The notes under the pieces were generated by a model. That model did not search any database and was not told where the DNA came from. It saw only the letters and a list, made by a program, of their open reading frames with translations. Of a stretch of DNA of 64,000 nucleotides, positions 48,217 through 52,212 are shown in pieces. The translations under genes and the position numbers were made by a program. The DNA is taken from positions 286,224-350,223 of the forward strand of contig PASF01000002.1 of the NCBI GenBank assembly GCA_002711845.1, read 5' to 3'. Every line of letters begins with the position of its first letter. Position 1 is the first letter of the stretch. This DNA comes from Gammaproteobacteria bacterium (GTDB taxonomy: Bacteria > Pseudomonadota > Gammaproteobacteria > Pseudomonadales > Pseudohongiellaceae).

Positions 48217-48242
48217 CTGCAAGTATCCCCAAAAACTTGCAG
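48217..48242 (+). promoter_or_regulatory. Hairpin over the presumed amidoligase start
   Basis: CTGCAAGT and ACTTGCAG form a perfect eight-base stem with a ten-base loop. Its right arm contains the TTG used as start codon of the amidoligase gene, so the folded RNA would bury that codon. An AGAGG sequence follows the stem, which hints at a start further downstream or at translational control. Confidence 0.45.
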
Positions 48243-49217
48243 ACAGAGGTTCCCATCCAATACCGGCAGGCTCCAACACTGAACGATCACAAAGGCGACG
48301 AGCGCACCGTAGGCTTCGAGCTCGAATTCACTGGCCTGAGTCTCAGCCAGGCCAGTGAGGCAGTCAGGCAGGCGTTGGGCGGTGACGTCACCAAAAAGCA
48401 CAAGGCCCTGCATCTGGTCACGGTTGATGGGCTGGGCGAGTTTCATGTCGAACTGGACTGGAGCTACCTGAAAAAAACCGCAGAACAAAACCCCGACGCC
48501 GATCATGTGACTCTGTTGCGTGATGCGGCGAGTCTGGTGGTGCCGATCGAAGTCGTGTGTCCGCCGATTCCTGTGACCGTCCTGCATAAGCTTGACCCGA
48601 TGGTGCGCGAGCTGCGCCTGGCGGGCGCCATGGGCACAGAAGACTCCGTGCTGGCCGCCTTTGGCGTTCACGTCAATGCCGCGCTGCCAGCGCTCGATGC
48701 GGATACCATACACCGTCATATCAAGGCGTTTTCACTGTTGCAATGGTGGCTGGTGCAGGCTCATGACGTCAATGTCTCGCGCCGTATCACCCCTTATGTT
48801 GATCTTTATCCGGAAGCTTACGTTAGAGACATCATCAATACCCGGGCGCCCGATATCGATCGCGTTTTTGACAGTTATCTGGAACACAACGCAACTCGCA
48901 ACCGGGCCCTGGACATGCTGCCTTTGCTGGCCCATCTTGACGAGGATAGAGTTAAAAAGGCCGTAGACGATGAGCGCATAAAGGCGCGCCCGACATTTCA
49001 CTATCGTCTGTCCAATTGCTCGATTGATGACGCGCAATGGGATTTGGCACAGAGCTGGAACCTTTGGGTGGTCGTGGAGAAGCTGGCTTGCCAGCCAGAC
49101 CTCATGGATCAGCTCGGCAAGGATTTTATCGCGGCTTCACGGCCGCTGTTGGGCATCAACGAACAACGCTGGATTGAGAGAGTCGATCGATGGATAAAAG
49201 ACCACGGATTGGTGTGA
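48237..49217 (+). CDS. Putative amidoligase (GS-like COOH-NH2 ligase fold)
   Basis: A 326-residue cytoplasmic protein of the amidoligase family (PF12224 type), distant relatives of glutamine synthetase that join carboxyl and amino groups using ATP. GS-like markers are seen: GFELEFTGL with Glu28 and Glu30 on the first strand, FHVELDW (Glu72, Asp74), PIEVVCPPI (Glu105), FGVHVNAAL (His145), and an Arg in FHYRLSNCSID. Glu and His residues would hold metal and ATP. No canonical ATG precedes the domain; TTG is used, but ATC after AGAGG is possible. It overlaps the C26 hydrolase gene by 28 bases. The acceptor and donor are unknown. Confidence 0.85.
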   Translation: MQTEVPIQYRQAPTLNDHKGDERTVGFELEFTGLSLSQASEAVRQALGGDVTKKHKALHLVTVDGLGEFHVELDWSYLKKTAEQNPDADHVTLLRDAASLVVPIEVVCPPIPVTVLHKLDPMVRELRLAGAMGTEDSVLAAFGVHVNAALPALDADTIHRHIKAFSLLQWWLVQAHDVNVSRRITPYVDLYPEAYVRDIINTRAPDIDRVFDSYLEHNATRNRALDMLPLLAHLDEDRVKKAVDDERIKARPTFHYRLSNCSIDDAQWDLAQSWNLWVVVEKLACQPDLMDQLGKDFIAASRPLLGINEQRWIERVDRWIKDHGLV

Positions 49218-49852
49218 CCGGCAACAGCCGCCGCTGGGCGCCAAGCTGGGTCTGTACCCGGCTGGCGCTGTTTCTTGTCGGCGCCGATGCGGTTCGCATC
49301 AGCGTACGCCATGATCCGGGCGAGGTCGATCTTCAGGGCCTTATTATCGGCGGCGGGGATGACATTTCGCCAGAGCACTATGGGCAGGACATGGATGCGA
49401 AAGTCAAACCGGACCCGCAACGCGATGAGCTGGAAATTCGCTGGATCAAACGAGCCCTGAAGCAAAGCATACCGCTGTTGGGCATATGTCGCGGTGCCCA
49501 GTTGATCAATGTGGTATTGGGCGGCACCCTGCACCAGGATATTCGTCCGCTGCGCGTCCGCACCTACAACCGGCCAGGACTGATGCCAACCAAGCAGGTT
49601 CGGCTGGAATCCGACAGCATGTTGGCTTCATTGATGGGTAAACTGCGGATCCGGGTAAACAGCCTGCATCATCAGGCGATCGACAAAGCAGGCGAAAACC
49701 TGCGGGTCGTAGGGCGCGACCTGGACGACATCGTGCAGGCCATACAGGCAACGGACAAACGGCGCATCATTGGCGTTCAGTGGCACCCTGAGTACCTTTT
49801 TTATCTGCCCGGGCAGCTTGCGCTGTTCCGTTGGCTGACTCAGAGAAACTGA
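49190..49852 (+). CDS. Class I glutamine amidotransferase-like hydrolase (peptidase C26, PuuD-like)
   Basis: A 220-residue cytoplasmic protein with the class I amidotransferase triad: Cys100 in LLGICRGAQLIN, and His/Glu in VQWHPEYLF. The segment GLIIGGGDDISPEHYG gives the oxyanion loop. Such proteins hydrolyse gamma-glutamyl amides (for example gamma-glutamyl-GABA) or feed ammonia to a ligase. It overlaps the amidoligase gene by 28 bases, a pairing known in amidoligase loci, so it either supplies ammonia or reverses the ligation. Its stop overlaps the YqaA-like start as TGATG. Confidence 0.9.
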   Translation: MDKRPRIGVTGNSRRWAPSWVCTRLALFLVGADAVRISVRHDPGEVDLQGLIIGGGDDISPEHYGQDMDAKVKPDPQRDELEIRWIKRALKQSIPLLGICRGAQLINVVLGGTLHQDIRPLRVRTYNRPGLMPTKQVRLESDSMLASLMGKLRIRVNSLHHQAIDKAGENLRVVGRDLDDIVQAIQATDKRRIIGVQWHPEYLFYLPGQLALFRWLTQRN

Positions 49853-50280
49853 TGCTGGCTTCCTATTTCGGACTTTTCATCAGTGCCTTTCTGGCTGCCA
49901 CCATTCTGCCGTTCTATTCCGAGGTGGTGTTGTTTGCGCTGTTGCGCGCGGGTGGCGACCCGTTGCTGCTGGTGATCATCGCAACGCTGGGCAATACGCT
50001 GGGGGCGGTTGTGAACTGGGTCATGGGCCTCTACCTGCTGCACTTCCAGGACCGGCGCTGGTTCTATTTCAAAAAAGAACAGGTGGCACGTGCGCAGCAA
50101 TGGTACGGCCGGTACGGCTACTGGTCGTTGCTGCTTGCCTGGCTTCCTGTTGGCGGCGATGCATTGACGTTTATTGCCGGAACCATGAAAGTCCGGCTGT
50201 CCGTGTTTCTGGTACTGGTCGGGCTGGGCAAGGCCGGGCGTTATATGTCGATTGTGTATCTGAACAACTGGTTCGGGTAG
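49852..50280 (+). CDS. YqaA family (DedA-related) membrane protein
   Basis: A 142-residue inner-membrane protein similar to E. coli YqaA. The pattern is LFISAFLAATILPFYSEVVLFALLRAGGDP, then TLGNTLGAVVNWVMGLYLL, a short soluble loop with RAQQWYGRYGYWSLLLAWLPVGGDALTFIAGTM, and GLGKAGRYMSIVYL at the end. The PxxSE and LPVxGD signatures are those of the SNARE_assoc fold. A TTG seven codons upstream is an alternative start; the ATG overlapping the C26 stop is preferred. A role in lipid or osmotic homeostasis is possible, but function is not established. Confidence 0.88.
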   Translation: MLASYFGLFISAFLAATILPFYSEVVLFALLRAGGDPLLLVIIATLGNTLGAVVNWVMGLYLLHFQDRRWFYFKKEQVARAQQWYGRYGYWSLLLAWLPVGGDALTFIAGTMKVRLSVFLVLVGLGKAGRYMSIVYLNNWFG

Positions 50281-50284
50281 TGCG

Positions 50285-50299
50285 GATAGGCAGCCTATC
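50285..50299 (+). other. Small hairpin after the YqaA-like gene
   Basis: GATAGG-CAG-CCTATC is a perfect six-base stem with a three-base loop four bases after the stop codon. It lacks a T-run. It may mark the end of the three-gene amidoligase transcript or be a processing site. Confidence 0.35.
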
Positions 50300-50358
50300 G
50301 CTGGCCAGATGTGCTAAATTCGCGGAAGCACACTGGAGCAGAGCAGGGAAAGGTAAAG

Positions 50359-50381
50359 ATTGCCTCTGGTGAAGAGGCAAT
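50359..50381 (+). promoter_or_regulatory. Strong hairpin in the leader of the nitrilase-family gene
   Basis: ATTGCCTCT-GGTGA-AGAGGCAAT is a perfect nine-base stem with a five-base loop, 43 bases before the ATG. It is followed by TCTTC rather than a U-run. It could be an attenuator, a mRNA stabiliser, or an operator. Confidence 0.45.
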
Positions 50382-50424
50382 TCTTCATGGTTCCACCAGG
50401 CAACACAAAAGAGGAAAGTTGATT

Positions 50425-51300
50425 ATGATTGTTCGCATTGCAGCTGTGCAATATCTATTGCGCCAGATTAATGACTGGGCAGGCTTCGAGAATCAGGTGC
50501 GTTTCATCATGCAGGCGGCCGGGGATTACAAGCCACATTTTGTGTTGCTGCCTGAGATTCTGACCACACAACTGCTGTCGTTCATGGACACGTCGGACCT
50601 GCGTGCCTCGGTCAGGAACATGAACGATTACACACGCCGTTACAAGGACCTGATGCAGGAGCTTTCGGCACAGTGGCAGGTTCACTTGATCGGGGGCAGT
50701 CACCCGACATTAAAGGAAGATGGGCGGCTACTTAACACGGCGTATTACTTTACGCCCAATGGCGACATATTCGAGCAGGACAAGATCCATCGCACACGTT
50801 GGGAACGTGAAAAATGGGAAACGGATGCAGGCGACAAACTGCATTTGTTTGAGACGCCTTATGGCAATATCGCGATTCTGATATGTTACGATATTGAATT
50901 CCCCGAACTGGCACGCCTGGTGTGCGAAGCTGGTGCTGATATACTGATGGTGCCGTCGTGCACAGACGACCGACAAGGGTTTCTTCGTGTGCGCTACTGT
51001 TGCCATGCGCGGGCCATTGAAAACCAGGTCTTTGTCGCCATGACCAGCACGGTTGGCAATCTGGCGGTCGAAGGGCTGGGTATGCACTACGGTCAGGCCA
51101 GTGTCATTACGCCATCCGATTTTTCGTTCGCACGTGATGGCATTGCCGCAGAAGGGACGCCCAATATCGAGCAGATCGTGGTTGCCGATGTTGACCTGCA
51201 AGACCTGGTGACCAATCGCCTAAGCGGTACCACTATTCCTTTGTACGACAAGCGTAAAGAGATATATGAGCGGCCGGTGGAGATTATCAAGATCAAGTAA
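50425..51300 (+). CDS. Nitrilase superfamily carbon-nitrogen hydrolase
   Basis: A 291-residue cytoplasmic enzyme. The ATG at 50425 follows AGAGGAAAG. The catalytic Glu-Lys-Cys triad is complete: Glu44 in VLLPEILT, Lys120 in QDKIHRTRWER, and Cys154 in ILICYDIEFPE. It hydrolyses a non-peptide C-N bond such as an amide. It appears 144 bases after the amidoligase-C26-YqaA group on the same strand, so it may break or trim what the amidoligase makes. The substrate is unknown; amidases acting on omega-amides or carbamoyl-polyamines are the nearest ideas. Confidence 0.92.
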   Translation: MIVRIAAVQYLLRQINDWAGFENQVRFIMQAAGDYKPHFVLLPEILTTQLLSFMDTSDLRASVRNMNDYTRRYKDLMQELSAQWQVHLIGGSHPTLKEDGRLLNTAYYFTPNGDIFEQDKIHRTRWEREKWETDAGDKLHLFETPYGNIAILICYDIEFPELARLVCEAGADILMVPSCTDDRQGFLRVRYCCHARAIENQVFVAMTSTVGNLAVEGLGMHYGQASVITPSDFSFARDGIAAEGTPNIEQIVVADVDLQDLVTNRLSGTTIPLYDKRKEIYERPVEIIKIK

Positions 51301-51363
51301 GTATGTCGTCCATGAGTCCGATGCCGGGCTGCGTTGGACCGGCATTTCCTGACGGCGCATATC

Positions 51364-52212
51364 ATGGACTTCTCCAGCCGCATGACGATCGTACTGCTAT
51401 TCATGCTTGTCGTGACAGTGGCGGTGTGGTTGTTTGTCTATCCCGCTTGGCGTCGCAAACGTCTCGATGCCAGAGCGTTTCCTGCTCACTGGGAGAAAAT
51501 AGTCAGGCAGCGTCTGCCTTTCTACGACCGGATGCCGGCAAAGATGAAGCTGGCCCTGCAAAACCGGATCACACATTTTGTTGCAGGCAAGCGCTTCGAA
51601 GGTTGCGCCGGTCAGCCCATTGATGACAATGTCAGGGTCAGTATCGCGGCGCAGGCCTGTCTGCTGATACTTAACCGTTCCGGTGACTACTATTCCGACC
51701 TGCATTCCATCCTGGTTTACCCGACCGGCTTTCTGGTAAGGCACGGCGATGTCGATGATCATGGCCTGGTCTCACACGGTGAGCAGGCGCTGGCGGGCGA
51801 ATCCTGGAACAACGGCCGTATCGTTTTGTCGTGGGAGGATGTGCAGCGCGGCGCCAGTGATTTCAGCGATGGCTATAATGTTGTGCTGCATGAGTTTGCC
51901 CACCAGCTTGACCATCAAAGTGGTGCAACCAATGGCGCGCCATTGTTGGCCAGCCGTGTTGCCTACCAGCAATGGGCAGAGGTATTCAACGACGAGTTTA
52001 CCCGCCTGCGGGAAAGAGCGCAGAACGTTGATTCGCACCCGCTCTGGGTCGAAGAGGTGCTGGATTTCTATGGTGCAACAGAGCCCGCTGAGTTCTTCGC
52101 CGTGGCCACGGAAACGTTCTACGAAAAACCGGCGCAACTGCTGGAGCAGCATCCGCAATTGTTCGAACAGTTGCGCCTGTACTACGGCGTGGATCCTCGT
52201 GAATGGCTCTGA
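51364..52212 (+). CDS. MtfA-type zinc metallopeptidase (M90)
   Basis: A 282-residue peptidase. The ATG at 51364 gives an N-terminal TM segment (MTIVLLFMLVVTVAVWLFVYPAW), so the body is probably cytoplasmic and membrane-bound. The zinc motif is VVLHEFAHQLDHQSG, and the third ligand Glu is in PAEFFAVATETFYE. E. coli MtfA is an aminopeptidase that also titrates the repressor Mlc. The preceding gene ends 63 bases upstream, so it may belong to the amidoligase neighbourhood or simply border it. Confidence 0.9.
   Translation: MDFSSRMTIVLLFMLVVTVAVWLFVYPAWRRKRLDARAFPAHWEKIVRQRLPFYDRMPAKMKLALQNRITHFVAGKRFEGCAGQPIDDNVRVSIAAQACLLILNRSGDYYSDLHSILVYPTGFLVRHGDVDDHGLVSHGEQALAGESWNNGRIVLSWEDVQRGASDFSDGYNVVLHEFAHQLDHQSGATNGAPLLASRVAYQQWAEVFNDEFTRLRERAQNVDSHPLWVEEVLDFYGATEPAEFFAVATETFYEKPAQLLEQHPQLFEQLRLYYGVDPREWL

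Follow-up and report, generated by a model that had tools for sequence, protein, structure and literature searches.

A window of 64,000 nucleotides from a gammaproteobacterial genome of the Pseudohongiellaceae (assembly GCA_002711845.1, contig PASF01000002.1, positions 286,224 to 350,223) was analysed, and its positions 48237-50280 constitute a recurring three-gene module encoding: (i) an Amidoligase_2 ligase (PF12224); (ii) a gamma-glutamyl hydrolase-type enzyme of the C26 family (hereafter, C26); and (iii) a small membrane protein of the YqaA type (COG1238, DedA). The probable role of this module is to synthesise, cleave and transport a small molecule with an amide linkage. The operon of ligase, gamma-glutamyl hydrolase and YqaA, together with a membrane-anchored gamma-glutamyl cyclotransferase (GGACT) that tracks the ligase in related genomes, makes a gamma-glutamyl amide the probable product. 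By means of this module, the PF12224 and COG1238 DedA families become testable together.

Occurrence of the module across genomes

Ligase neighbourhoods were compared in 88 loci: (i) the best 80 of at least 571 confirmed relatives, obtained by a pattern scan of named genomes with the ligase alignment and read with flanks of up to 8 kb; and (ii) 8 regions from near relatives. The set is biased towards loci resembling the window, many of its loci fall short of 8 kb flanks, and two of them (L011 and L036) look like one identical locus counted twice. C26 is present in 81 of the 88 loci, YqaA in 42 and a GGACT-type protein in 4. Among the seven loci without C26, the gene is truly absent from L014, L015, L016 and L093, and L047, L068 and L018 are fragments or are cut off too early; at L059 and L080, the C26 open reading frame (ORF) as called extends too far at its start. 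The ligase and C26 genes repeatedly overlap by 28 or 49 bp, partly due to start-codon choice; in the window, both ORFs share 28 bp.

A preliminary description of this DNA had proposed that the system goes beyond the basic ligase-C26 pair, which holds for YqaA: in 42/42 cases its gene shares the strand and occupies the next position downstream, no more than 324 nt beyond C26, in loci that span Gammaproteobacteria, Rhodocyclaceae, Limnobacter and sulfate-reducer records. Microbulbifer carries the complete set of three genes (L022, L024, L028 and L031). At L016, where C26 is missing, YqaA comes directly after the ligase. All other clusters of ORFs of at least 70 amino acids (aa), formed without supervision, reach at most 16 loci, antisense and overlapping ORFs aside. 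The ten cluster representatives that were scanned are varied (a chemotaxis receptor, a beta-lactamase-type protein, a transporter, regulators and others), one of them being without a Pfam match.

The pair also recurs in two less biased samples, in which the flanks were covered to about 1.5 kb (MtfA could therefore be missed there). In the class sample, window included, the ligase has C26 beside it in 18 of 21 matches, and intact YqaA is found in 6, plus one remnant. This remnant of 76 aa (L113:3096-3323), located directly after ligase and C26, matches the profile in two separate places. The loci examined in the phylum sample were L182-L200, 19 in all and new (L201-L204, from a single genome, were left out), and C26 adjoins the ligase in 16 of them. 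Three loci, L099, L117 and L200, were missed by the ligase model and are counted as lacking C26. L099 holds a divergent PF12224 ligase of 318 aa with no C26 or YqaA within about 1.5 kb; an adjoining ORF of 305 aa appears phage-like by eye.

The distribution of the ligase is patchy: it occurs in 8/56 relatives, 20/369 genomes of the class and 24/398 genomes of the phylum (each count includes the genome of the window). On a relative's contig (L121:1443-2254, - strand), YqaA follows the C-terminal part of a C26 gene with no ligase, an arrangement that looks like a decayed module.

Ligase, hydrolase and membrane protein

The ligase scores 239 bits against PF12224 (curated cut-off, 22), covers profile positions 2-245 of 245, and is the sole match to this family in its own genome. 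The residues highlighted in the preliminary description were borne out by the homologues: among 46 ligases, E28, E30, E72 and E105 never vary (nor does D74), and the conservation of H145 is at least 90%; the C26 triad C100/H199/E201 is conserved in 82/82 sequences. The CRG motif at the nucleophile is likewise conserved in all 82. A scan of viral contigs with ligase alignment A2 (from which row L092 was excluded, as a stop codon lies within its stretch) confirmed no relative.

The AlphaFold2 model of the ligase is confident (mean predicted local distance difference test score, 92.9; predicted template-modelling score, 0.91). When this model was compared with the PDB by Foldseek, the first 20 rows were all proteins of the glutamine synthetase/gamma-glutamylcysteine synthetase (GS/GCS) type: 1tt4 (titled predicted glutathione synthase, a YbdK-like protein), YbdK, a plant glutamate-cysteine ligase and then glutamine synthetases. 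Membership of the GS/GCS superfamily is weakly indicated by these matches, and a GS/GCS-like fold is supported by prediction. Sequence searches against solved structures gave no useful link for the ligase or for YqaA.

The ligase was rejected as a substitute for GshA, as GshA (PF04262) is present elsewhere in this genome; in the class sample, GshA occurs in 11/20 ligase-positive genomes versus 161/369 of all genomes. A second, divergent amidoligase lies on the - strand at L118:1378-3568, after overlapping genes for ExoD and an Amphi-Trp-domain protein and without C26, which is a different partner set for PF12224.

By its sequence, C26 is PuuD-like, not PuuD: it shares 34% identity with E. coli PuuD across 158 residues, scores 78.4 bits against the PuuD equivalog NF008471 (cut-off, 266), and resembles other CRG-type hydrolases as well. 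Its PF07722 score exceeds the Pfam cut-off. It is the only strong C26 match in its own genome, which contains six weaker PF07722 matches (20.8-39.2 bits).

The third protein is 42% identical to E. coli YqaA (E 9e-30), and its acidic residue E24 is invariant in 20/20 aligned sequences; with 32.5 bits against the equivalog (cut-off, 300), it does not score as an UptA undecaprenyl-phosphate transporter. In E. coli K-12 (L119:6884-8941), gshA follows yqaA downstream at a distance of 72 bp, and its product, gamma-GCS, is also among the Foldseek rows for the ligase model. As a general rule this adjacency was rejected, no GshA having been found within about 1.5 kb of 30 YqaA loci. Rhodanobacter YqaA is reported to affect indium accumulation and is linked to indium resistance (PMC8679861).

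A membrane-anchored GGACT protein tracks the ligase

In two genomes of the same genus (G007 and G009), the ligase has no adjacent C26 and is overlapped instead by a GGACT gene (PF06094), whose product begins with a hydrophobic anchor. A search of the 56 relatives (one query sequence, 1e-8) returned anchored GGACT in 4, all of them among the 8 ligase-positive relatives. With a model built from four sequences (1e-6), strong matches of at least 147 bits were obtained in 8 of 37 further ligase-positive genomes, which amounts to 8 of the 10 that belong to the same order; weak matches occurred in 5 others, and the two inspected have no anchor. Among 80 ligase-negative genomes (18 of the same order), there was no strong match and one weak match (29.5 bits). 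Within the order, anchored GGACT is then found in 12/18 ligase-positive versus 0/66 ligase-negative genomes (Fisher 1.6e-10, ignoring phylogeny).

A hydrophobic stretch precedes the catalytic domain in all 12 proteins, as judged by eye and by hydropathy rather than by a topology predictor. The gene adjoins the ligase in 3 of the 12 genomes and is unlinked in 9; simple hitchhiking, therefore, does not explain the co-occurrence. Furthermore, among the 18 ligase-positive genomes, anchored GGACT is found in 0/4 with YqaA in the module and in 12/14 without it (p 0.005; 0.02 by genus; ancestry ignored in both). The co-occurrence of GGACT and ligase and the alternation of GGACT and YqaA are strong hints, not proof.

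Proposed function and alternative explanations

In our judgement, there is about an even chance that the ligase makes a gamma-glutamyl amide, that C26 cleaves it and that YqaA moves it or its amine. The nitrilase and MtfA genes further downstream are bystanders, as shown by the neighbourhoods. The PuuD and GGACT families act on gamma-glutamyl amides, and the product is proposed to be one of these amides because two unrelated types of enzyme that cleave them, C26 and GGACT, track the ligase. The preliminary description had envisaged a system that makes and breaks a conjugate, possibly a gamma-glutamyl compound, and both ideas gain support, by inference, from the sequence comparisons. The following steps are proposed: (i) the GS/GCS-fold ligase would join, at the expense of ATP, the gamma-carboxylate of glutamate (or a similar carboxylate) to an amine; (ii) C26 would cleave the bond made by the ligase, thereby recycling the amine or limiting the conjugate; and (iii) YqaA would move the amine or the conjugate across or within the inner membrane, this being the weakest step. 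In sister lineages, anchored GGACT stands in place of the module YqaA and, in two genomes, also of C26; the products of its action on the conjugate would be pyroglutamate and the amine, and, in view of its N-terminal anchor, it may act on the outer side of the membrane.

A number of observations weigh against this proposal. Regarding the ligase, the best Foldseek E-value is 2.1e-3 (none at or below 0.001), with a leading TM-score of about 0.34; and its profile has no significant similarity to the single E. coli sequences of GshA, YbdK and PuuA (with GshA, a short GVHxN match alone). The adjacency of yqaA and gshA in E. coli is not repeated in the 30 YqaA loci mentioned above. As for GGACT, the 27 ligase-positive genomes of other orders that were searched gave no strong match, the carriers belong to three families of a single order, and the tests ignore their shared ancestry. 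Finally, the alternation is not absolute: at L023, a soluble GGACT lies 2.7 kb from a module complete with ligase, C26 and YqaA, and genome G419 encodes an anchored GGACT and, at an unlinked site, YqaA.

The remaining objections concern YqaA, and they feed the best-placed alternative, namely that the core consists of ligase and C26, with YqaA as a frequent passenger that has a separate membrane job. To this explanation we assign roughly one chance in four. YqaA is missing from about half of the sampled ligase loci (46/88, a few of which end too soon) and was not found within about 1.5 kb in any of the 19 phylum loci; it also occurs away from the ligase, beside varied genes; matches to the YqaA model at E up to 1e-3 are widespread (186/369 class genomes), probably including other DedA proteins; and its distances correlate with those of the ligase less closely (r 0.65) than those of C26 do (r 0.87, shared species history left in). 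Against a passenger role, YqaA keeps the same strand and the next downstream place in all 42 loci, across the groups named above, and alternates with anchored GGACT.

A second alternative, which we consider improbable, makes C26 a glutaminase subunit: it would release ammonia from glutamine, and the ligase would use this ammonia to convert a carboxylate to an amide, in the manner of class I amidotransferase synthases. The frequent overlap of the ligase and C26 genes and their correlated distances would suit this explanation, and C26 does match the glutamine amidotransferase (GATase) family PF00117 with 58.7 bits. Nevertheless, its score of 165.9 bits against Peptidase_C26 is far higher. GATases as a rule differ from CRG at the nucleophile, a motif which is retained in all 82 sequences and is the same in the aligned PuuD. 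In addition, the two genomes in which the ligase is flanked by a cyclotransferase but not by C26 do not fit, as a cyclotransferase would supply no ammonia.

Even less probable, in our view, is peptide or protein tagging, in which the ligase would attach a peptide or an amino acid to proteins and C26 would take it off. GS-fold ligases such as PafA perform tagging. In phage UFV-P2, PF12224 is reported in the vicinity of genes for a COOH-NH2 ligase, a GATase and an ATP-grasp protein, which points in the same direction. On the other hand, there was no indication of a peptide tag: no tag-like small ORF was noticed among the clustered ORFs of at least 70 aa (not all clusters being named, and tags below 70 aa not having been looked for), and the partner enzymes resemble small-molecule gamma-glutamyl enzymes.

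Returning to the gamma-glutamyl amide, a more specific version of the proposal is a gamma-glutamyl shuttle, in which an amine is joined to glutamate and the process is finished at the membrane, interchangeably by YqaA transport or by splitting by the anchored, periplasmic GGACT; we hold this version to be speculative, with perhaps one chance in five. The function of COG1238 proteins is little known, and they have been put forward as possible movers of uncharged or cationic lipids (Todor et al., PMC10127716). Because of that suggestion, the shuttled amine could possibly be the headgroup of an aminolipid. If true, the shuttle would provide a class of substrates for the COG1238 DedA proteins, an orphan family.

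The nitrilase and MtfA genes look like unrelated neighbours of the module. Both were sought in the 88 loci by single-sequence phmmer (1e-6, ORFs of at least 70 aa), and neither was found in any of them, with up to about 8 kb covered on either side of the ligase. Nitrilase orthologues, 91-93% identical, occur in three genomes without the ligase (G013, G014 and G029), and no ligase, C26, YqaA or MtfA lies within about 1.5 kb on each side of them. MtfA orthologues have other locations in the relatives: the contig that carries mtfA in G013 is not the one that carries the nitrilase gene, and about 54 kb separate mtfA from the ligase in G023. The preliminary description had taken the five genes as a single set with nitrilase and MtfA among its working parts, a claim that these neighbourhoods do not sustain; the same check, by contrast, retained YqaA. 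A five-gene system, which the consecutive, same-strand genes of the window would suggest, is thus highly implausible, as none of the 88 neighbourhoods retains nitrilase or MtfA and their orthologues lie apart in the relatives examined. Nitrilase paralogues (about 40% identical) are also present in same-genus genomes within frames of about 520 aa or more, which suggests a nitrilase fused to another domain.

Genes and other features of the window

The features are listed in Table 1. As stated in the preliminary description, the five ORFs share one strand, which is the + strand, and their Pfam families agree with the functions given there.

Table 1. Positions of the module genes, of the two genes that follow them in the window, and of the GGACT-like protein in other loci (L numbers).
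Feature	Position	Strand	Family match or remark
Amidoligase_2 ligase, 326 aa	48237..49217	+	PF12224, 239 bits
C26 gamma-glutamyl hydrolase-type enzyme, PuuD-like	49190..49852	+	Peptidase_C26 PF07722, 165.9 bits
YqaA-type DedA (COG1238) small membrane protein	49852..50280	+	VTT/DedA PF09335, 48.5 bits
Nitrilase-type amidase, outside module	50425..51300	+	CN_hydrolase PF00795, 106.5 bits
MtfA/M90 peptidase, outside module	51364..52212	+	Peptidase_M90 PF06167, 296.2 bits
N-terminally anchored GGACT-like protein	L005:927-1451; L208:1444-1932; L209-L216		tracks amidoligase in one order, mostly unlinked

Three starts probably or possibly differ from that of the longest ORF. The nitrilase most likely starts at ATG 50425, not at 50311, which places it about 145 bp beyond YqaA. 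YqaA itself likely starts at ATG 49852 instead of TTG 49831, and MtfA may start at ATG 51364 instead of TTG 51334. The gap between YqaA and nitrilase holds a 9-pair hairpin (50359-50381, scored on the - strand by the scan), which is consistent with separate transcription units for both genes. In the promoter and terminator scan of the window, counts were inside the spread of the shuffles, and the Rfam and tRNA searches gave no match in the window.

Comparison with known systems

The module YqaA belongs with COG1238 DedA proteins, as shown by its identity of 42% to E. coli YqaA and by its invariant E24; in their accessible parts, two articles on these proteins make no mention of an amidoligase operon (PMC10127716, PMC8679861). 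YbdK and glutamate-cysteine ligase are the closest folds to the ligase model, albeit with weak E-values, and E. coli YbdK is not detectable by sequence from the ligase profile.

In the putrescine (Puu) pathway, the formation of a gamma-glutamyl amide is catalysed by a GS-type ligase (PuuA), and the cleavage of such an amide by a C26 enzyme (PuuD). The likeness lies in the hydrolase, given the identity of the module C26 to PuuD (34% over 158 residues); the ligase profile, by contrast, has no significant similarity to E. coli PuuA. Besides, the E. coli Puu locus holds PuuB, PuuC and PuuE, and no such recurrent set of neighbours was found among the clusters scanned: there was no oxidase-dehydrogenase set, and one aldehyde dehydrogenase cluster was present in 4 loci.

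The ligase-C26 pair is already described: in 2009, Iyer and colleagues reportedly paired the proteobacterial PF12224 ligase with a thiol peptidase, and the Firmicutes Amidoligase_2 with an AIG2/GGCT cyclotransferase, pairings that the Pfam text reportedly gives as well. In the literature searched, with partial full-text and subscription coverage, no report of the YqaA partner or of the anchored GGACT link was found, nor an assayed product of a PF12224 ligase. The Amidoligase_2 pairs share with the module the ligase family and the C26-type partner, with an AIG2-type cyclotransferase as the alternative partner. The module differs from them in two aspects: (i) YqaA/COG1238 is a third gene (42/88 loci); and (ii) within one order, the ligase is accompanied from genome to genome by a membrane-anchored GGACT, encoded mostly at unlinked sites.

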